Below are positions 3,458-53,877 of a DNA stretch of 64,000 nt, piece after piece (the stretch's first letter is position 1; each line of letters opens with the position of its first letter). The notes beneath the pieces were generated by a model that saw only the letters and a program-made list of their open reading frames with translations, did no database searches and had not been told where the DNA came from. The DNA lies in contig NZ_JAUSUH010000002.1 of the NCBI RefSeq assembly GCF_030813595.1, positions 434,001-498,000 of the forward strand, read 5' to 3'. The position numbers and the translations under genes are program-made. This DNA is from Ancylobacter vacuolatus (GTDB lineage: Bacteria; Pseudomonadota; Alphaproteobacteria; Rhizobiales; Xanthobacteraceae).

Positions 3458-4084
3458 TCAGCGCGCGGCGGTGTCGGCCGGGGCGCCGGTCCAGGGCTTC
3501 AGCCAGCCCATCAGCGCGCCATAGGGGATGAGCGCGAGCAGCGCGAAGCCGAATTTCACCAGGAAGTCGAAATAGGCCAGCCCCATCCACAGCGGCACGG
3601 TGATGCCGGTGGAGGCATAGGTGACGGGGAAGGACATATCCGCATCGCCGGCAAAGGCGAGCGAGAAGAACAGCGCCGTGTCGATGGCCGAGCCGAACAG
3701 GCTGCCGGCCAGGGGCGCCTGCCACCAGCTCATCCGCCGCAGGCGATTGAACACGCCGATATCGAGAAGCTGGCCGAAGAGGAACGCCGTGCCGGAGGCC
3801 AGCGCGATGCGCGGCGTCGCCAGCCAGATCGACAGCAGCACCGCCAGGGCGAAGCCGGCATAGACCACGCGCCGCGCCCCGGCCGGGCCGAAGCGGCGAT
3901 TGGTCAGGTCATTGACCAGAAAGGCCAGCGGATAGGTGAAGGCGCCCCAGGTCAGGAAATCCTGGAGGCCGAACTGCTCGACCGGGTGCTGGACAAGCAC
4001 GTTCGAGGCCGCCACCACCGCCATCATTGCGATGACGGGAAGGGCGAGCCTCTTGAACGGGATCTTGGTGCCGGCGATCGTCAT
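3458..4084 (-). CDS. VUT-family queuosine precursor transporter (YhhQ-like)
   Basis: 208 residues, highly hydrophobic, with about six membrane helices. The patterns 'ASNVLVQHPV', 'TYPLAFLVNDLTNRRFG', 'FLFGQLLDIGVFNRLRR' and 'GSAIDTALFF' are diagnostic of the VUT/YhhQ family, which imports queuosine precursors (preQ0/preQ1) across the inner membrane for tRNA modification. The start lies just after the rpmB stop with 3 bases between, so the two are probably cotranscribed. Confidence 0.85.
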   Translation of the reverse strand: MTIAGTKIPFKRLALPVIAMMAVVAASNVLVQHPVEQFGLQDFLTWGAFTYPLAFLVNDLTNRRFGPAGARRVVYAGFALAVLLSIWLATPRIALASGTAFLFGQLLDIGVFNRLRRMSWWQAPLAGSLFGSAIDTALFFSLAFAGDADMSFPVTYASTGITVPLWMGLAYFDFLVKFGFALLALIPYGALMGWLKPWTGAPADTAAR

Positions 4085-4087
4085 CGC

Positions 4088-4396
4088 TCAGGCGGCGACG
4101 GCGACGCTCGCCACAGCCACGGTCGCCTTGGCGACGGCGCGCTTGAGCTCGGCCGCCTTCGGCGACAGCTCTTCGGTGTGAGCCTTGAGCAGGAACGCAT
4201 CGAGGCCGCCGCGATGATCGACGGTCTTCAGGGCGTTGGCGCTCACGCGCAGCTTCACCGACCGCTTCAGCACATCGCTGGTGAGGGTAACGTTCACCAG
4301 GTTCGGCAGAAAGCGCCGACGGGTCTTGCGGTTGGAGTGGCTCACGCGATTGCCGGACAGAACCGCCTTCCCGGTAAGTTCGCACCGACGCGACAT
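4088..4396 (-). CDS. rpmB: 50S ribosomal protein bL28
   Basis: 102 residues starting [10 protein letters not shown], the usual alphaproteobacterial bL28 start; a longer frame would add three residues. '[19 protein letters not shown]' and '[23 protein letters not shown]' are the conserved rRNA-binding parts of the large-subunit protein. AAGGA lies about 7 bases upstream of the chosen ATG. The C-terminus is an Ala/Val-rich helix. The gene is divergent from the DUF3108 gene. Confidence 0.96.
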
Positions 4397-4667
4397 CGTG
4401 GACATCCTTGTATCAAAACCGTTGCGTCGTAGGCCGTATAGTCCGCCCGACGATCCCGCATCCGGTATCCGTGGAAATTGAGAGCGCTCCTATAAGGGCC
4501 GGTCCCTGTGCCGTCAAGGCCGGGGAGCGCGAAGCCGTGCCGGCGAATGCCCGCTGGCGACTTCGTGAGGAGGCGAGTCACAGTTCCGCCGCCTTCCCCA
4601 CACATCCGAAACAAGGATAAATTCACGCTTCGGCCCTCGGGTCACGGCGATTCGGGAATCTGCCTTC

Positions 4668-5510
4668 ATGATGCGGGTGTGCCTCACGGCCTTTCTGGCG
4701 GTTGCCGTCGCGGGCGCGATGGTTGCGGACGCCCGCGCCGATGGACGGCTGGAGGCGCGCTACCGCATGTCGCTGGGCGGGCTGGAGCTCGGCCGCGCGG
4801 CGCTGCTGATCGAGGTCGACGACACCTCCTATATCGCCTCCGGCAGCGGCCGGCTCACCGGCGTGGTGCAGGCGGTTTCCTCCGGCAAGGGCACGGCCGG
4901 GGCGCGCGGCGCGGTGCGCAGCGGCGAACTGGCCCCGCGCAGCTTCGCCATGGAAGCGGTGTCCGACAAGAAGACCGAATCCATCCGGCTGGTCATGAAT
5001 GGCGGCGGCGTCACCGACATGCGGGTGGAACCGCCGGTGGTTCCGTCCCTCGACCGGGTGCCGGTGGCGGACAAGGACAAGAAGGGCATTTTCGACCCGA
5101 TGACGGCGGCGCTGGTCATGGTGCCGGGCACTGACGACCCGCTCTCGGCCAAGGCCTGCGAGCGCACGCTCTCCATTTTCGACGGTCGCCAGCGCTACGA
5201 CCTGACGCTGAGCTATGAGCGTATGGACGAGGTGAAGGCCGAGAAGGGCTATGCCGGCCCCGCCGTGGTCTGCCGCATCGCCTATCGCCCGGTCGCTGGC
5301 CACAAGCCGGGCCGCGCCGGCGTGAAATACATGATGAAGAACAAGGACATGTTCGTCTGGCTGGCGCCGGTGGCCGGCACCCGCGTGCTGGTGCCGTTCC
5401 GCGCCTCGGTGACGACGGCGATCGGCATCGCCCAATTGGAGGCGGAAGCCTTCGAGACGCGGGCCGTGGTCGGCACCCGCTCCACCCCGGCCAAGGCGGG
5501 ACTGCCGTAG
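4668..5510 (+). CDS. DUF3108 domain-containing exported protein
   Basis: 280 residues with a signal peptide (to about 'DARAD', residue 25). The mature part begins 'RLEARYRMSLGGLELGRAAL' and later has 'KKGIFDPMTAALVMVPG' and 'YDLTLSYERMD', the signature regions of DUF3108, a periplasmic beta-rich family of unknown function often found near rpmB in Rhizobiales. The last part, 'MFVWLAPVAGTRVLVPFRASVTTAIG', is also conserved. No catalytic motif is recognised. ATG at 4668 or 4671 is possible. Confidence 0.82.
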   Translation: MMRVCLTAFLAVAVAGAMVADARADGRLEARYRMSLGGLELGRAALLIEVDDTSYIASGSGRLTGVVQAVSSGKGTAGARGAVRSGELAPRSFAMEAVSDKKTESIRLVMNGGGVTDMRVEPPVVPSLDRVPVADKDKKGIFDPMTAALVMVPGTDDPLSAKACERTLSIFDGRQRYDLTLSYERMDEVKAEKGYAGPAVVCRIAYRPVAGHKPGRAGVKYMMKNKDMFVWLAPVAGTRVLVPFRASVTTAIGIAQLEAEAFETRAVVGTRSTPAKAGLP

Positions 5511-5519
5511 CGCGCCCTC

Positions 5520-6053
5520 TCAGCCGACGGCGCCAGCGATCACACGCCGCAGCGCCGCATCGCTGAAGTCTTCGAGATCGAGCAGCGCCGCATAGGCATC
5601 GCCCGTCAAGCCGAGCACCTGCGCGAAGGCCGGCTCGGTCTTCGCCCCGGCCCGGCGCCGCGCCATGACCTGCCGGCGCAAGGCCGCGCCGCCTAGGTGC
5701 AGCAGCCGCTCCTCGATGCGGAAATGCCGCCAGCCGGCCTGCTGCGCCACCGGGCAGGACGATGCGAAGACCTCGAACGGCCAGCCATGCGCGGAGAAGG
5801 ACGCCACCACCGCCCGCTCGCCGGAGCACCATTGCCGCAGGCCGAAGCATTGCTCGTGACGAAAGCCATCCCACATGAGGGTTGTGAACGACAGGGCATC
5901 CGGCGCGCAGCAGACGATGTCGATGTCGCTGGTCGGGACATCAAGGCCGAGCGGCGGCGTGCCGACGACATGCGGATCGAAGGCGGCGAGCGCCGTCAGC
6001 AGGCCCGAATGCTCCAGCGCCGTTTCGAAATCCGGTCGTGCCGCCTGTGTCAT
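5520..6053 (-). CDS. DUF4269 domain-containing protein
   Basis: 177 residues. 'VVGTPPLGLDVPTSDIDIVC' resembles a nucleotidyltransferase-fold strand with an S-D-I-D acidic pair, followed by 'GWPFEVFASSCPVAQQAGWRHFRIEERLL', typical of DUF4269 (PF14091). No biochemical role is established. The frame is open far upstream on this strand, but that part is antisense to the helicase; ATG 6053 gives the family's usual length. It is convergent with the DUF3108 gene (9 bp) and divergent from the helicase. Confidence 0.8.
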   Translation of the reverse strand: MTQAARPDFETALEHSGLLTALAAFDPHVVGTPPLGLDVPTSDIDIVCCAPDALSFTTLMWDGFRHEQCFGLRQWCSGERAVVASFSAHGWPFEVFASSCPVAQQAGWRHFRIEERLLHLGGAALRRQVMARRRAGAKTEPAFAQVLGLTGDAYAALLDLEDFSDAALRRVIAGAVG

Positions 6054-6164
6054 GATGTTCGGCCCGATGACCCGCCCCGGCATCGGGGATGAAGGACGGC
6101 TCGCCGCGGGTTGCCGCCTCGTGCTAAAAGGGCCGCCCTTCCGGCCCGACGGATCCATTGTCGT

Positions 6165-43120: not shown

Positions 43121-43423
43121 TCAGGCGGGCACGTCGGCGGGGACGACTAGCCCGCGCTCGGCCAACCCGGCGAGAAACGCCAGCACATCGCGTTCGATCT
43201 CGTCGATCGGCCCCTCATAGAGCTGCGCCAGCTCCGCGCAGAGCGGGCCGATCTCGACCGGGGTCTCCAGCCGGTTCCATATCTCGGTGCCGGTCGCGTC
43301 GAGCTGGTAATAGGCGCCGTTCTCGACATTCATCATCACGATGTCCCCCTCCAGCTCGGCGGTTAGGCACTCCGGGGAGCGGCAGATGCGGGACTGAAGC
43401 GTCAACATGCGGGTTTTGCTCAC
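43121..43423 (-). CDS. PqqD-like RRE protein (lasso peptide B1 type)
   Basis: 100 residues from GTG 43423 (ATG 43408 alternative). 'CLTAELEGDIVMMNVENGAYYQLDATGTEIWNRLETPVEIGPLCAEL' and 'IERDVLAFLAGLAERGLV' match the PqqD fold of RiPP recognition elements, as in stand-alone B1 proteins of lasso-peptide clusters. It would bind the precursor leader and present it to the B2 protease and C cyclase. It is on the same strand as the cyclase and two precursor-like genes; the B2 gene that normally follows is absent. Confidence 0.85.
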   Translation of the reverse strand: MSKTRMLTLQSRICRSPECLTAELEGDIVMMNVENGAYYQLDATGTEIWNRLETPVEIGPLCAELAQLYEGPIDEIERDVLAFLAGLAERGLVVPADVPA

Positions 43424-43759
43424 GAAAGACGGCCGGGCGGCGCAGGCGCGGCGGCCTGTTTCGCACAGCCGGCGTCCAAAGGCGAGCCGCGCGCGCTATC
43501 GGCCTGCGCGAGGCGTCGCCGCCTTGTCCTGACGCGCCACGCCTCCGTGCCGGAGCCGCGGGCCACTCGCCGGCGATGACGTCTTGCATCGCGACCGCCT
43601 GCATGGCCTGACGGTCGAATCGCCGCGCCCTTCCCCCCTGCTCATGCCCGAGCCTGAGGCTGCCGTCCCCCGGCCCGCCCCGCACGCGGGGCGGAGGAGG
43701 CCATCGCCCAGGCGCGGCCGCCGACACGGCGCTCCATGCGCCTGCCACGGGCGTGGCGC
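43424..43759. other. Gap between second precursor and B1 gene
   Basis: 336 bp with no convincing gene in any frame. A B2 transglutaminase-like protease (about 140 residues, Cys/His/Asp) would normally be adjacent to B1, but no Cys...HAW pattern was found. The long open minus frame 43215-43838 runs through B1 out of frame and is not credible. The stretch may hold decayed B2 sequence; I cannot show it. Confidence 0.5.
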
Positions 43760-43942
43760 TCAGGAGACCAGCGTGACGCGATCCGCCAGGCCGGCCGGCC
43801 CGAACCGGGTCAGGTCGCCGAGGGCAAGCGATCGGCATTCCGGCGCCTTCCGGGGCTGGCGCGCCGTGGCAAGGGGCTCGTTCATTCCGGCCGCCTGCGC
43901 GTCCTCGGCCATCGAGGATGTCAACTCAGCGCGTTCCATCAT
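43760..43942 (-). CDS. Second lasso-precursor-like peptide (divergent)
   Basis: 60 residues. It aligns with the precursor at 44110-44280: N-terminal S-M-x-x-D-A-x-A-A-G, then R-x-A-P-E, then D-L-T. Thr45 at -2 predicts cleavage after Arg46 and the core FGPAGLADRVTLVS (residues 47-60), with Asp54 at core position 8 for an eight-residue ring closed on Phe1. Core length (14) and final Ser equal those of the first precursor. The leader aromatic (W in the first) is Arg here and the ribosome site is weak, so it may be a diverging or dead paralogue. Confidence 0.55.
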   Translation of the reverse strand: MMERAELTSSMAEDAQAAGMNEPLATARQPRKAPECRSLALGDLTRFGPAGLADRVTLVS

Positions 43943-43989
43943 AGATCGACCGTCTTCGCCGCTTTCCTAATCTGGCGAAAATGGCTCAC

Positions 43990-44015
43990 CCCACCGCCCG
44001 CGCACAGCCGGTGGG
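43990..44015. other. Hairpin between the two precursor genes
   Basis: CCCACCG (43990-43996) and CGGTGGG (44009-44015) form a 7-bp stem with a 12-base loop, in the 167-bp gap between precursors. On the minus strand TTTT follows some bases later, so it could attenuate or stabilise the mRNA. Weak evidence. Confidence 0.3.
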
Positions 44016-44109
44016 AGCGCGACGGGGTTGGATTCTGGTTCCCTCGGCGCCGGCCGGATCAGCTCAAAAGGTATCATGTGCTGATTGGATCAGGCCTCCA
44101 GCCGTCGCG

Positions 44110-44280
44110 TCAGCTGAGTCCAGCAACGAAGTCATCGCTGCCTCCGCCTCCCCCTTGGGTAAGGTCGTCCACCCTGACCTGCAAAATCTCCGGCGTCCGC
44201 CAAGGCTTGCGCAAAGCCGGGGCGCCAGCCGCGCCGGCATTGTCAGTCATCGAAACGGCCGTCGCATCCTGGTCCGTCAT
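44110..44280 (-). CDS. Lasso peptide precursor
   Basis: 56 residues, shorter than usual ORF cut-offs. The leader (1-42) has K25-P-W27-R-T-P30, the Y/W-x-x-P motif bound by B1 RRE proteins, and ends D-D-L-T41-Q42. Thr at -2 is the hallmark of lasso leaders. The predicted core is GGGGGSDDFVAGLS (43-56): Gly1 would join the side chain of Asp8 (or Asp7) in an 8- or 7-residue macrolactam, leaving a 6-residue tail with Phe/Val as possible plugs. GAGGGG precedes the ATG, and TATAAT lies 43 bases upstream. It sits between the cyclase and B1 genes on the same strand. Confidence 0.8.
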   Translation of the reverse strand: MTDQDATAVSMTDNAGAAGAPALRKPWRTPEILQVRVDDLTQGGGGGSDDFVAGLS

Positions 44281-44322: not shown

Positions 44323-44328
44323 ATTATA
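44323..44328 (-). promoter_or_regulatory. Candidate -10 element for the lasso precursor
   Basis: TATAAT on the minus strand (44328-44323), a perfect -10 hexamer in otherwise GC-rich DNA, 43 bases before the precursor ATG. No good -35 is seen 16-18 bp upstream. It would allow the precursor to be made independently of the cyclase gene that ends at 44374. Confidence 0.4.
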
Positions 44329-44373: not shown

Positions 44374-46341
44374 CTAGCCATTGCCGCCCTCGACCATGCG
44401 GATGAACCGCCCCACGGAGAGGCCACGCAGCAGGGCGAGGCGGTGGGAGACTTCGTGCTCCCGGGTCAGCATCGGCAGCTGGCCCGGCGGGGTGGACGGG
44501 TCCGGCAGGGCGGTCGCGAGAGCGCGCAGGCGCGGCAGGTCGAGCGCGCGGGAGGCCAGCGGCGAGGATTCCAGCCGCGCGATCTCGGCCAGCAGGCCGT
44601 CGCGCGCTGCCACCACGCCCTCAAACCAGTCCGCCGCCTGATAGCCGCGCGTGCGCCGCGCCAGCTGCCCGGCCGGCATCAGCCCTTCCATGGCGTCGCG
44701 CAGCAGCGAGGAGGTGCGCCCCTCATGGATGAAGTGCTGCTCCGGCAAAGCGAGGCAGAAATCCACCAGCCGCCGGTCCGCTGTGGGGTCGCGCGTATCC
44801 ACGCCGTAGCGCGCCAGGCTCGCCTTGATCACGGCGCCCTGGTCAATCCGGTTCAGCACGGCGAGGCGCATGGCCCGCCCATCGGCCCAGGGACGGTAGG
44901 TCAGATCCCAGGCCCGCTCCCGGGCGATGGCGTCGAGATCGATCGCCTGCCGGAAATCGGCGGAAAGGGCGGTGTGGACGAAGGGGTCCGTCGCCGCAAC
45001 CGGCGCCGCGCCCTGCCATTCCAGTATGAAGCGGGGCAGATAGGGGCCGAGCGCGGCCCGAAACGGCCCCTTGAAGTTGCAGCCGTCGCGCCACATGCCG
45101 ATGCTGACGCCCGCCAGAGCGAGCCAGCGCCCGCGCCGGAACAGCTGCGCCAGATGCGGCCGTCCGTCATAGGAGACGGTCATGTTGCCCACCGCGCCGG
45201 AGAGCATCACGCGGATGCGCCCGCGCGCCGCCTCCGCCTCGATCGCGTTCAACCAGACATTGTTGCACGGGTTCAGCACCGGCTGGTCCTGCGCCGGCAG
45301 CTGCTGCTCGACCCCTCGCAAAGGATCGGCCGGACCGGTGCGGATCACCCGGTGGTCGATATTGGGAAAGCGCGCCGCCAGCGCGGCGGCGACCGGGGAT
45401 TCGTCGGTCGGCCGGCCCCGATAGGCGGCGAGGGCGAAGCCCTCGCGCGGGGCGGCGGTGAAAGCGGTCAGGCGCTTGTCCTGCCGGGCGAGTTCGGCGG
45501 CGGCGAGGGCGGTGACGGAGCCGCTGTCATAGCCAGCGCTGAGATGGCTGCCGATCCCCATGCCGGCGGGCACGCGCAGCCGGTCGCGGACCGCCCGGGA
45601 ATAGAGCCGCCGCAGCTCGCCGACCTGCTCGCGATAATCCCCCACCGGCTGGGCAGGCACCTCCTCCGGCCGCCAGTAGCGGTTAAGCTGCCGCCCCTCC
45701 CCGCTGACGGTGAGACTGTGGCCGGGCGGCACGCGGGAGAGGTCACGGTAGAAGCTGCGGGTGTGGTGCGCCGGCAGCAGCGCCAGATAGGCGCCGATCT
45801 CCGCCTCGTCGAGCGCGTCCGACACATCGGGAACAGCGAAAAGCCCCTTCGGCATCGAGGCGAAGGCGAAGAAGCCGGGGCCATGGGCGAAGTAGAGCGG
45901 CCGGATGCCGAGAAAATCGCGCGCCAGCAGCAGGCGCCCGGCCTGCCGGTCCCACAGGGCGAAGGCGAAATCCCCCGCCAGCCGGTCGACGCAACTCTCG
46001 CCCCAGCGCTGATAGGCGGCCAGGATGAGCCCGGCATCGCCGACCCGGTCCGGCCCGTCGGCGGGCAGGCCCAGCGCTCCGGCCAGTTCGGCGCCATTGT
46101 CGATGCGGGCATCGGCCACCAGCCAGAGCGCCCCGCCGGCAGCGGCGAGAGGCTGGCGGTCGAAACGGTCCTCAGCGGTGACGCGCATCTGCCGCCAGAC
46201 CAAAGCGAGGCCGTGGTCGCGCTCTTCCTGCAGCCCGCTGCGGTCGGGGCCATAGGGCTCCAGCGTAGCCGACATCCGCTCCGCTACCTGACGAACGCCG
46301 CCGGAACCGTCGAAGCGCCAGAGTCCGGCAATCGCCGTCAT
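44374..46341 (-). CDS. Asparagine-synthetase-like lasso cyclase (C protein)
   Basis: 655 residues from ATG 46341. The N-terminal glutaminase-like domain starts MTAIAGLWRF, with no Cys at position 2, so it cannot use glutamine as class II amidotransferases do. 'DFAFALWDRQAGRLLLARDFLGIRPLYF' follows. The ATP-pyrophosphatase domain has the PP-loop 'GSHLSAGYDSGSVTALAAAEL', and later 'TADRRLVDFCLALP' and 'RRTRGYQAADWFEG'. This is the architecture of McjC/LarC-type cyclases, which adenylate the core Asp/Glu and form the macrolactam. Its neighbours (precursors, B1) support that role. Confidence 0.85.
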   Translation of the reverse strand: MTAIAGLWRFDGSGGVRQVAERMSATLEPYGPDRSGLQEERDHGLALVWRQMRVTAEDRFDRQPLAAAGGALWLVADARIDNGAELAGALGLPADGPDRVGDAGLILAAYQRWGESCVDRLAGDFAFALWDRQAGRLLLARDFLGIRPLYFAHGPGFFAFASMPKGLFAVPDVSDALDEAEIGAYLALLPAHHTRSFYRDLSRVPPGHSLTVSGEGRQLNRYWRPEEVPAQPVGDYREQVGELRRLYSRAVRDRLRVPAGMGIGSHLSAGYDSGSVTALAAAELARQDKRLTAFTAAPREGFALAAYRGRPTDESPVAAALAARFPNIDHRVIRTGPADPLRGVEQQLPAQDQPVLNPCNNVWLNAIEAEAARGRIRVMLSGAVGNMTVSYDGRPHLAQLFRRGRWLALAGVSIGMWRDGCNFKGPFRAALGPYLPRFILEWQGAAPVAATDPFVHTALSADFRQAIDLDAIARERAWDLTYRPWADGRAMRLAVLNRIDQGAVIKASLARYGVDTRDPTADRRLVDFCLALPEQHFIHEGRTSSLLRDAMEGLMPAGQLARRTRGYQAADWFEGVVAARDGLLAEIARLESSPLASRALDLPRLRALATALPDPSTPPGQLPMLTREHEVSHRLALLRGLSVGRFIRMVEGGNG

Positions 46342-49744: not shown

Positions 49745-49894
49745 TCGACGGACGGGTCGGCGCCGAGGCAGCTCGCATGAACTTTAGAGAGCGTGGATCT
49801 GGTCGGTTAAACCCGCGGTAGTTCCTTCCCAGAGGTAACCGTTGCAGGAATATCGCGCGCGATCCGCAAATGTGGCGAGAATGGGCGCCCCGAC

Positions 49895-49921
49895 TTGACG
49901 CCGCGAGAGCCACCATAATAC
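49895..49921 (+). promoter_or_regulatory. Candidate promoter of the autotransporter gene
   Basis: TTGACG (49895-49900) and TAATAC (49916-49921), spacer 15 bp (16 if CTTGAC from 49894 is used). AT-rich sequence follows and the gene's ATG is at 49960. The upstream 150 bp after the kinase remnant show nothing else. Confidence 0.45.
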
Positions 49922-49959
49922 CGCATTGTTTGTATCGATTTTTAAATCAGGCGGTCCGC

Positions 49960-52900
49960 ATGCTTCTCCCCTTGCCCAAGGTTTCCTCGCGCGCACTGCG
50001 GCGCCTGCTGCTGGCCTCAGCCGCCGTGATGGTCGCTGGCTCTGCGCAGGCCCTGGACCTGACCATGCCGGGCAGGGGCGGCACAGGCGGCGGCGACATC
50101 GCCGGCGGCGCTGCAAACCCGTCGTCTAATGGCACGGGTATCGCAGGCACTAGCGGGAGCACGGGGTCAGAAAGCGGCGGCGGCGGCGGCGGCGGCGCAT
50201 CGGGCGGTGCGGGCGGCAATGGCGGCAATAGCGGCGGTGCGGGCGGGGCCGGCGGCGCGACTGCCGGCGCCAGCGGTGCAGCCGGAAGCAGCGGCAGCAC
50301 GGCCGGCGGCGGCGGCGGCGGCGCCCATGGCTATGCCGGCGCGGTATCGGGCGTGACCGATTCGACCCTGACCTTTACCGGCGGCGCCGGCGGTGCTGGC
50401 GCCGCTGGCGGCGTGGGCGGCGGCGGTGGCGGCGGCGGCTATGGCGGATCGGTGGCGTCGGGAGCCGGGTCCAGCACGATCGGCGCGGATTTCGTCGGCG
50501 GTGCCGGCGGCGCGGGTGGCTCGGGCAACCCGGCCGGCAGCGGCGGCGGTGGCGGCGCCGGCCTTACTATTTTGACGACCGATGCGGGCGCCGATGTCAC
50601 GTTTGGCTCCACCGCCTCCGCGACGGGCGGCGCCGGCGGCGCCGGCGGCGGCAACGGTTCGGTTGGCGGCACGGGCGGAGCGGGCCTGGTGCTCAGCTCC
50701 TCGTCGGTCGATCCCACCACCGTGACGATCGAGGGCACGGTGACGGCGGGCACCGGTGGCTCAGCCATTGGTGAGCCGTCGGTCGGTGGCCAGGGCGGCA
50801 TGGGGATCTACATCCTCACATTCCAGCAAGCGGGGCTGCTGACCGTCAATGTGAATTCCGCCCTTGTCGGCGGCACGGGTGGCACGGTGTCCAGCGGCGC
50901 GACAATCACCGGCGGCGAGGGCGGCATCGGCATCTTTGCCGGCAATGTGGATTCGACGCCCGGCCTCGCCATCATCAACGTCAATGCCAACGTCACCGGC
51001 GGTACCGGCGGGGTCGCCAACTCCTTCGGGACCAGCGGCGCGGGCGGGACGGGCATTGGCGCGTTGAATTCCCTCATCACCGTGGCGAGTGGGGTCACGG
51101 TTTCCGGCGGTGCCGGCGGTGTCGGTACAGGAAACGTGGCCGATGGCGCCGGCGGCGTCGGCATCGGCGGCAGCAATGTCTGGGTGGTGCTCGAAGGGAC
51201 GGCCACGGTGCAGGGCGGCCTCGGCGGGGATGGCGTCACCCGTACCGCGGCGCTTAGCTTCGGCAATGGCGTCAATACGCTCGAGCTGCGCGCGGATGCG
51301 AACGGCAATCTGCCGACCTTCCTCGGCGACGTCTCGCATTCCAGCGGAACCGACACGCTCGCTCTCGGCGGCACCAATGACAAGACCATCGACGCGACCA
51401 CGCTGACCGGTTACGCCGACGGCTTCGATGCCCTGGCCAAGACCGGCACCTCGACCTGGACGCTGACCGGCGACTTCTCGAGCAGCAGCCTCGCCTGGAC
51501 CATCAATGAGGGCACGCTCTCGATCAGCGCCGACAATAATCTCGGCGCTTCGTCCGCCGGTGTGACGCTGAACGGCGGCACGCTGCTGACGACCCAATCC
51601 ATCAGCACGACGCGGGAATTCACCGTCGGGTTGAAGGGCGGTACGCTCTCCGTCGCGGCAGCCACGACGCTGACCCTCGACTCCTCCATCTTCGGCTCCG
51701 GAGCGCTTACCAAGGACGGCGCCGGCACGCTGACGCTGACAGCCGGCAACAAAGGCTATACCGGCGCTGTCACCGTCTCGGCCGGCACCCTGGCCGTGAG
51801 CGGCGCGGGCCGACTCACCTCCGCCAGCGGCGTCACCCTCGGCAAGGCCACGCTGGACATTTCCGGCACCAATAACGGGGACGCGCTCAAGAGCCTGAAC
51901 AGCACCGAGGCGACCAGCCGCGTGGTCCTCGGCACCAAGGACCTCACGATCCAGGTGAACGGAAGTTCGTCCAGCTTTGCCGGCGTCATCAGCGGCGAGG
52001 GCGGGCTGGTCATCACCGGCTCCAACGGCACCGTCACCCTCAGCGGCGACAACACCTATTCCGGCACCACCTCGATCTCCGGCTACGCCATGATCGGCGC
52101 CGGCGGCACCACCGGCTCGGTGGCGGGCAAGATCGATCTCAGCGGGTCCGGCACGCTCACCTTCAGCCGCTCGGACACCTACACCATCACCAACAACATC
52201 AAGGGCGCCGCAGGCACCGCCCTCGGCTTCATGGGCGGCGGCACCTTCACCTATGCGGGCCTCGTTCCTGAGTCCGACATCTTTGAAGGCTTTGTGACGG
52301 TCGGCAATGCCACACTGAAGCTGACCGGCAGCGAATTCGCCACCGCCTCCAGCGTGGAAGCCTATGAGGGCGGCATCATCGCCGGCAATGGCACGGTCAA
52401 TGCCCTCATCATCCATGACGGCGGCACCGCGGCTCCCGGCAATTCGCCCGGGACGCTGAACGCGACGACCGTTTCCTTCGAGGCCGGCTCCACCTATCAG
52501 GTGGATGTGACGCCCTCCGGCGCGCACGATCTCATCATCGCCAGCGGCACGGCCACCATCGACAGCGGCGCGACGGTTGAGGTCGTCGCCCAGCCGGGCC
52601 GTTATGAGGTGGACACCAAATACGCCATCCTCACCGCCAACGGAGGCGTCACCGGCAATTTCGGCAGCGTGACCGAGAATTACGCCTTCCTCGACGCCGC
52701 GCTCGAGAAGGATGAGACCAATATCTACCTGCTGCTGCACTACACCGGCGTCGATTTCGCCACCTACGCGCTGACGAAGAACCAGTTCACCACCGCCACG
52801 GCGGCGCAGACGCTGGGCGCCGGCAGTGCGGTGTTCGACGCGCTGGTGCAGCAGACGGCCACCTCCGCGCCAGGCGCCTTCAACGCGCTGTCCGGCGAGG

Positions 52901-53877
52901 CCTATGCCTCGGTCGGCAGCGTGATCCAGCAGCAGTCGGTCTATCTGCGCGACGCGGTGGGGGCGCGGCTGATGCAGTCGCTCACCGCGCCGGGTGTCTC
53001 GCCGCTGGCCTATGGTCCCGGCCCGGTGAAAGCCCAGCTCGCCGAAGGCTATACCCCCACCCTGTGGCTCGAAGGCTATGGCGGCTGGGGCGACACCTAT
53101 TCCAACGGCAATGCCGCCACCATTTCCAACTCGATCGGCGGCTTCCTGATGGGTGCCGACGTCGCGGTGGTGGACAATGCCCGCGCCGGCCTGTTCGCCG
53201 GCTACAGCCAGTCGGATTTCGACGTGACCGGCCGCTCCTCCTCCGGCTCGATGGATAATGTCGACATCGGCCTCTATGCCGGCGCCCAGTTCGCCAACAT
53301 CGCCCTGCGCGGTGGCGCGGCCTATACGTGGCACGATGTGTCGATGTCGCGCAGCGTCGTCTTCCCCGGCTTCTTCGACGCCACCGAGGGCGATTTCACC
53401 ACCGGCACCACCCAGGTGTTCGGCGAGGTGGGCTATGACATGGAGGTAGGGTCGTTCGCCTTCGAGCCCTTCGCGGGTCTGGCCTATGTCAACGTCTCCG
53501 GCGCCTCCTTCGCGGAAACCGGCGGGGCGGCGGCGCTTTCCGTGTCCACCGGCGGCATGGACACGGTTTATTCGACGCTCGGCCTGCGCGCGGCGACGAC
53601 GGTCCAGCTCGGCGGCAAGACGCTGACGCCGCATGCGACGCTTGGCTGGCAGCACGCCTTTGGCGACACGTCGCAGGTCTCGACCATGCAGTTCTTCGGC
53701 GGCGCGACGCCGTTCTCGGTCACGGGCGTGCCGATTGCGGAAGATGCCCTGCTGCTGGAGGCGGGGCTCACCTATGCGCTGTCCGACACGGCGTCTCTCG
53801 GCGCGTCCTACACCGGCTAGCTCGCCGGCTCCGCGTCGCAGAACGCCTTCACGGTCCAGTTCGGGATGAAGTTCTGA
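49960..53877 (+). CDS. Large Gly-rich autotransporter adhesin with an in-frame TAG near the end
   Basis: Signal peptide (1-30, 'LLLASAAVMVAGSAQALD'); a Gly/Ala-rich passenger with repeated 'GGAGG' turns (about 35-450); passenger beta-helix repeats such as 'LTKDGAGTLTLTAGNKGYTGAVTVSAGTLAV' (autotransporter-associated beta strand); then an autotransporter beta-barrel from about residue 1030 ('LWLEGYGGWGDTYSNG', 'GADVAVVDNARAGLFAGYS'). The frame meets TAG at 53818-53820 (1286 residues), but after it 18 sense codons finish the barrel as 'AFTVQFGMKF' and TGA at 53875. The terminal Phe needed for outer-membrane insertion is thus lost unless TAG is read through; a CAG-to-TAG change would explain it. 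Confidence 0.85.

Follow-up and report, generated by a model that had tools for sequence, protein, structure and literature searches.

A probable lasso-peptide precursor gene in an apparently eroding Ancylobacter locus, with a candidate leader peptidase encoded elsewhere on the chromosome

Is a reading frame of only 56 codons in Ancylobacter vacuolatus the precursor gene of a lasso peptide, and what would process its product if the locus holds no leader peptidase? The frame, here called A1, lies at 44110-44280 of a 64,000-nucleotide stretch of DNA (the window) between a lasso-type cyclase gene (C) and a gene for a leader-binding protein (B1), exactly as the original prediction had placed it. 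The features of the locus are collected in Table 1.

Table 1. Position, strand and basis of the features assigned to the lasso-type locus of the window
Feature	Position	Strand	Basis
A1, precursor	44110..44280	minus	ORF; profile matches without the window rows; aligned with 13 other precursors
TATAAT, possible -10 element of A1	44323..44328	minus	sequence; 48 bases upstream of ATG
C, Asn-synthase-like macrolactam cyclase, 655 aa from Met	44374..46341	minus	PF00733, GATase_7
B1, PqqD-type leader-binding protein (RRE)	43121..43423	minus	PF05402, 68.9 bits
A2, second precursor-like ORF, core FGPAGLADRVTLVS	43760..43942	minus	profile E 9.4e-19 and 0.0044
Stub of HPr-kinase-like gene K, ~26 codons	43584..43660	plus	match to L042; junction 43652-43660

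A1 starts with ATG and encodes 56 residues, MTDQDATAVSMTDNAGAAGAPALRKPWRTPEILQVRVDDLTQGGGGGSDDFVAGLS. Its leader ends at Gln42 and is followed by a 14-residue core, GGGGGSDDFVAGLS, with Asp at positions 7 and 8; Thr41 occupies position -2, and the leader motif WRTPEI matches the consensus [Y/W]xxPx[L/V/I/A/F/Y] published for lasso leaders (PMC13381572). The W-x-x-P motif, the Thr and the core named in the original prediction can thus all be read in A1. The proposed ribosome site also stands, with GAGGGGAAGG found 5' of the ATG, while the TATAAT claimed alongside it reads TATCAT at the same place in the nearest relative, A. rudongensis (G017), and is unsupported as a conserved promoter. Motif spacing, which had been offered as evidence, was dropped as proof of A1. 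The leader-motif regex matches once in the window against a mean of 1.4 in 20 first-order shuffles, so that the spacing alone is not evidence for the gene; over 197 kb of rpoB loci the same regex gives one match, and over 64 kb of further loci from the window's genome it gives two.

Homology is more telling. A profile of six precursors from outside the genus (Oleisolibacter, Blastomonas and Sphingomonas) ranked A1 first among 1168 six-frame segments of the window (E 9.4e-5) and A2 second (0.0044), with the next segment at 0.14, a test that is not fully independent of the motif, since the six rows had themselves been selected by the motif beside cyclases. A 12-row profile without the window rows recovered both A2 (E 9.4e-19) and A1 (E 1.4e-10), and 14/14 aligned precursors, both window ones included, share the WxxP proline, a Thr at -2 and a C-terminal Ser. 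The check named by the original prediction was the presence of homologues beside C and B1 in related genomes: short homologous ORFs do adjoin the orthologous C in G017, G028 and G014, and the first two of these also keep an intact B1. On these comparisons, A1 is a real gene and very probably encodes a lasso-peptide precursor.

The neighbouring genes are of the expected families. C scores above the cut-offs for PF00733 (92.8 bits) and GATase_7 (89.6 bits), and B1 has relatives in the PDB annotated as lasso PqqD chaperone, TbiB1 and TfuB1. Against a lasso reading, both proteins miss the NCBIfam cut-offs for their lasso families, C with 317.6 bits to NF033535 (cut-off 525; a narrow model rather than a definition of the class) and B1 with 65.4 bits to NF033536 (cut-off 80). 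The dN/dS of C is 0.26 against G017 and 0.23 against G028, and C and B1 together range from 0.20 to 0.28 between the three orthologues, values that indicate purifying selection on both genes. No transporter was seen in the window locus, which is flanked by tRNA-Ser at one edge and by Lrp/AsnC-like and GntR/aminotransferase-like genes at the other. Elsewhere in the window, a plus-strand ORF of 1316 aa (49870-53820), very glycine-rich in its first third, appears autotransporter-like by eye.

The history of the locus can be read from its relatives. Among 30 Ancylobacter genomes, the genome of the window (G000) included, a cyclase of the window type (82-100% identity) occurs in five, namely G000, G017, G028, G014, where it is split by a frameshift, and G005, where a 148-aa fragment is left. 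In G017 and G028 the locus combines C, B1 and an oppositely oriented K with a tandem series of precursors. G017 has three intact copies, a frameshifted orthologue of A1 and one fragment; G028 has three intact copies and one that is frameshifted. G014 has one intact precursor and a B1 reduced to 30 residues. Remnants persist in G013, where fragments of C and B1 lie next to each other, and in G019, where a piece of B1 is left; the latter genome is the sister of G000 on the rpoB tree, its flanks match at 94-96%, and nearly the whole locus is gone.

Decay has apparently reached the window itself. Positions 43124-43660 match 3807-4357 of the K-bearing locus L042, and positions 43652-44024 match 5193-5568 of the same locus. 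These L042 stretches are separated and flank its K (4281-5198), so about 0.84 kb with nearly all of K appears to have been lost from the window, with a nine-base overlap at the junction. Window positions 43841-44003 match more than one place in L042, so the precursors are arranged as repeats, and A2, 62% identical to a G017 precursor that retains the leader Trp, looks like the product of a deletion between two such units. It keeps the Thr at -2, and its leader motif reads RKAPEC; with Arg where the published consensus needs Tyr or Trp (PMC13381572), A2 is probably dead. The K stub, the loss of the leader Trp from A2 and the near-total loss in the sister genome all point to a locus that is eroding, the leftover of a larger Ancylobacter precursor array. 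A2, the deleted K, the array of the relatives and the absence of a leader peptidase gene (B2) had all been overlooked by the original prediction.

Such erosion could have gone further still, leaving a decaying pseudo-cluster in which A1 has survived intact by chance, no product is formed and the five glycines of the core reflect drift. The deletion of K, the broken leader of A2, the frameshift in the G017 orthologue of A1, the lack of B2 and the remnants in four genomes (G014, G005, G013 and G019), with near-complete loss in the sister G019, would all be expected of it. However, the reading frames of C, A1 and B1 are all unbroken, the dN/dS of C and B1 is low, as given above (part of this constraint may predate the decay), and the leader of A1 has been retained while its core varies. 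When A1 is compared with the G017 orthologue, omitting codons 21-23 owing to the frameshift, the 39 leader codons carry two silent changes and one amino-acid change, whereas the 14 core codons carry five altered residues (six base changes) and no silent change; for amino-acid-changing codons, 1/39 against 5/14 gives a Fisher p of 0.0035. A kept leader and a varying core form the pattern expected of a RiPP precursor, and we regard a productless relic as unlikely, if still to be taken seriously.

If A1 is a working precursor, its leader has to be removed, and no B2 was found in the window or in the loci of G017, G028, G014 and G005. The genome does carry one intact lasso-type B2, at C3:197131-197718; by eye, its neighbours are an ABC permease gene on one flank and genes for a substrate-binding protein and a GntR-type regulator on the opposite flank. 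Of the Cys, His and Asp expected in B2, Cys and His are present in 9/9 B2 sequences of the genus, and G002 has Glu in place of the Asp. The same 9/30 genomes contain both B2 (E up to 1e-10) and B1 (E up to 1e-6); C (E up to 1e-40) is found in all nine and, weakly (34% identity), in two others. All nine B2 neighbourhoods were compared at least in part: eight share one distant conserved position for B2, and in G008 the gene adjoins its cluster. Seven of the nine genomes have no other PF13471 gene, although G017 and G028 each have two or more lasso-type loci. The five orphan copies compared have pairwise dN/dS values of 0.13-0.27, from a calculation on six of the nine genomes (G002, G013 and G014 left out). 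On an rpoB tree covering 28/30 genomes (the other two gave no rpoB match), eight of the lasso genomes form one clade and G008 lies outside it, which amounts to two changes, so the co-occurrence of B2 and B1 comprises too few independent events for a test. G014 retains B2 though both its lasso loci are broken. As a base rate, a PF13471 gene is found in 4/21 B1-negative genomes of the genus. Another PF13471 gene of the window's genome, on contig C7 next to ORFs resembling PqqD and HPr kinase, is a less convincing candidate for B2, with matches of similar score in the B1-negative G007, G021, G022 and G026.

A wider scan of genomes gave 46 loci (L084-L129); within the stretches covered, some of them truncated, 20 show a B2 and 26 do not. 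Whole-genome searches covered 19 of the 26 B2-less loci, in 18 other genomes, the omitted ones being four Ancylobacter loci, L113, L127 and L128. A PF13471 gene was present elsewhere in 16/18 of these genomes; Novispirillum itersonii and Undibacterium squillarum had none genome-wide. Where a genome has a single PF13471 gene, no C, B1, K or sulfotransferase gene lies within ~1.5 kb of it in 4/6 cases. The 16/18 and 4/6 counts support, short of proof, a B2 that is unclustered and shared. Whether one such B2 is the common leader peptidase of two or three distinct lasso loci in Ancylobacter, and possibly across many Alphaproteobacteria, seems to us evenly poised; if so, individual loci could dispense with a B2 of their own as precursor arrays are gained and lost. 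Alternatively, B2 may be dispensable here, or the leader may be trimmed by an unrelated peptidase, the distant B2 serving some other function. The two genomes of the 18 with B2-less loci and no PF13471 gene are in keeping with this, and pseudomycoidin, judging by a published title, is reportedly made without leader and leader peptidase. Set against it are the occurrence of B2 exactly where B1 occurs among 30 genomes (two events only, given the phylogeny), its place next to the cluster in G008 and its purifying selection, and we consider a B2-free route rather improbable.

Once the leader has been cut, where would the ring close? Besides those of A1 and A2, the unbroken Ancylobacter cores are AGAPGGPDSTILS, AGGPGTTDSTILS and IAPASSDEGGSLVS in G017, VAGTDNEDTAAFS, VVSNMGPDISELS and LGTEVVVDGAVVQS in G028, and AGPAGSMDGGIFS in G014. 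Position 8 is acidic in 9/9 unbroken Ancylobacter cores (Asp in eight, Glu in one), position 7 in 3/9, and all nine end in Ser. Across 23 cores, nine from Ancylobacter and 14 from other genera that were collected with a regex itself requiring Asp/Glu at 7-9, position 8 is acidic in 22/23, a figure valid for this subtype only, since some of the omitted regex matches have their acid at 7 or 9. The omitted rows were those of L084 (same genome as L042), one L117 match, two frameshifted Ancylobacter precursors and the regex matches in L087, L090, L092, L093, L108, L110, L111, L128 and L129. Of the acceptors at positions 7-9 that the original prediction had allowed, Asp7 and Asp8 are both present in A1, and it is position 8, not 7, that is conserved. 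Closure between Gly1 and Asp8, giving an eight-residue ring, is therefore favoured from core conservation. A seven-residue ring shut at Asp7 could appeal to the Asp7 of A1 and to the acid at 7 in three Ancylobacter cores, but position 8 is acidic in every one of the nine, which makes closure at Asp7 distinctly doubtful. The five glycines, described at the outset as exceptional, are indeed the extreme among the 23 cores, where the next longest run is two; however, the sole A1 orthologue found, that of G017 with a one-base deletion in its leader, reads SGGVGSDD, so the run is ruled out as a conserved trait and is peculiar to this genome.

Taken as a working pathway, A1 would be translated as a 56-aa precursor, whose WRTPEI motif would be bound by B1, as inferred from its family. 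The cysteine peptidase B2, encoded elsewhere on the chromosome, may then cut after Gln -1 with recognition of Thr -2, and the cyclase would activate the Asp8 side chain with ATP and join it to the amino group of Gly1, with the eight-residue ring GGGGGSDD presumably enclosing a threaded tail, FVAGLS. The calculated [M+H]+ of the dehydrated core is m/z 1177.51. A macrolactam RiPP without threading is highly improbable, for although threading is unreadable from sequence and the curated lasso models are matched below cut-off, every recognisable part is of lasso type. The locus would descend from multi-precursor loci of the kinase type, in which K phosphorylates the C-terminal Ser; with K deleted, no phosphate would be expected on the product here, barring the action of a kinase encoded at another locus. 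The terminal Ser of the kinase type is present, but K is only a stub in the window and intact in G017 and G028, and the locus is accordingly filed as a derivative rather than a member. We think it likely that it is a kinase-less derivative of the proteobacterial kinase-type lasso loci and that an unclustered B2 serves it in trans.

Kinase-type lasso loci are known from Sphingobium yanoikuyae (SyanA/SyanK), with the order A B1 B2 C K D (PMC5067487, PMC8498205, PMC9266682). As far as the available text of these sources describes them, they share with the window a split B1, C and a Ser-ending precursor, and the orthologous Ancylobacter loci carry K as well; unlike them, the window has K deleted and no B2 or transporter was seen in its locus, and its relatives have several precursors. 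Paeninodin from Paenibacillus, the C-terminal Ser of which is phosphorylated by PadeK (PMC9266682), likewise has a split B1, a cyclase and the terminal Ser, but differs, in what that source gives, in gene order, in its clustered B2, in the presence of K and in its core. Lasso loci whose multiple precursors share a leader motif have also been described (PMC13381572), and their variable cores behind a common motif resemble the Ancylobacter array, which is found in the relatives, whereas the window has one good and one broken copy. Kinase-bearing A B1 B2 C K D loci and multiple precursors are thus already described in these sources, and A1 joins a known kind as a new member.

The new part, relative to the literature found, is the unclustered B2. 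RiPP enzymes encoded away from their clusters include the citrulassin deiminase (PMC8498205) and some lanthipeptide proteases (PMC8960859), to which the Ancylobacter B2 is alike in position; the former is a tailoring enzyme and the latter belong to lanthipeptides, whereas here a core lasso leader peptidase would be concerned, possibly for two or three loci. In the open-access literature we found other such enzymes but no report of a lasso B2 outside its cluster, no paper on lasso peptides together with Ancylobacter and nothing relevant on glycine-rich lasso rings. Should B2 work in trans, genome searches looking for A, C, B1 and B2 side by side would score such loci as incomplete, and the cleavage rules of several peptides would be dictated by a single peptidase. 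The array of precursors also offers a natural series of cores, with the acceptor fixed at 8 and GGGGGSDD as the nearly side-chain-free extreme, and hence a direct test of the minimal ring sequence that a lasso cyclase needs.

Further loci of related types were seen in the same genome. A second lasso-type locus on contig C17 (L007, 1171-4994) comprises a precursor, C, K, B1 and a B2 in two frames, and is adjoined by a JmjC/cupin-like ORF at 5204-6112; B2 of this type is also in two frames in the related MAG L088 and in one frame in L085 and L086. A third, on contig C1 (L020, 4270-8371), has B1, HPr-kinase-like, sulfotransferase-like and C genes with a short ORF ending in DGFSS, and no B2 in 16 kb. 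Contig C7 (L002/L006) brings together PqqD-like, Transglut_core3 and HPr-kinase-like ORFs; no Asn-synthase-like cyclase match was seen beside the PqqD-like ORFs, and the group is perhaps a cyclase-free RiPP system. A cyclase match on contig C14 was set aside, as from its sequence and surroundings (by eye) it looks like another Asn-synthase-type amidotransferase. In G017, contig C8 (L210, 3247-6916) has another group of C, B1, sulfotransferase and K genes (29-36% identity) and, nearby, a weak match to the precursor profile, and in G028 a K, sulfotransferase and C group (L046, 4502-8363) lies ~35 kb from the window-type locus of that genome.
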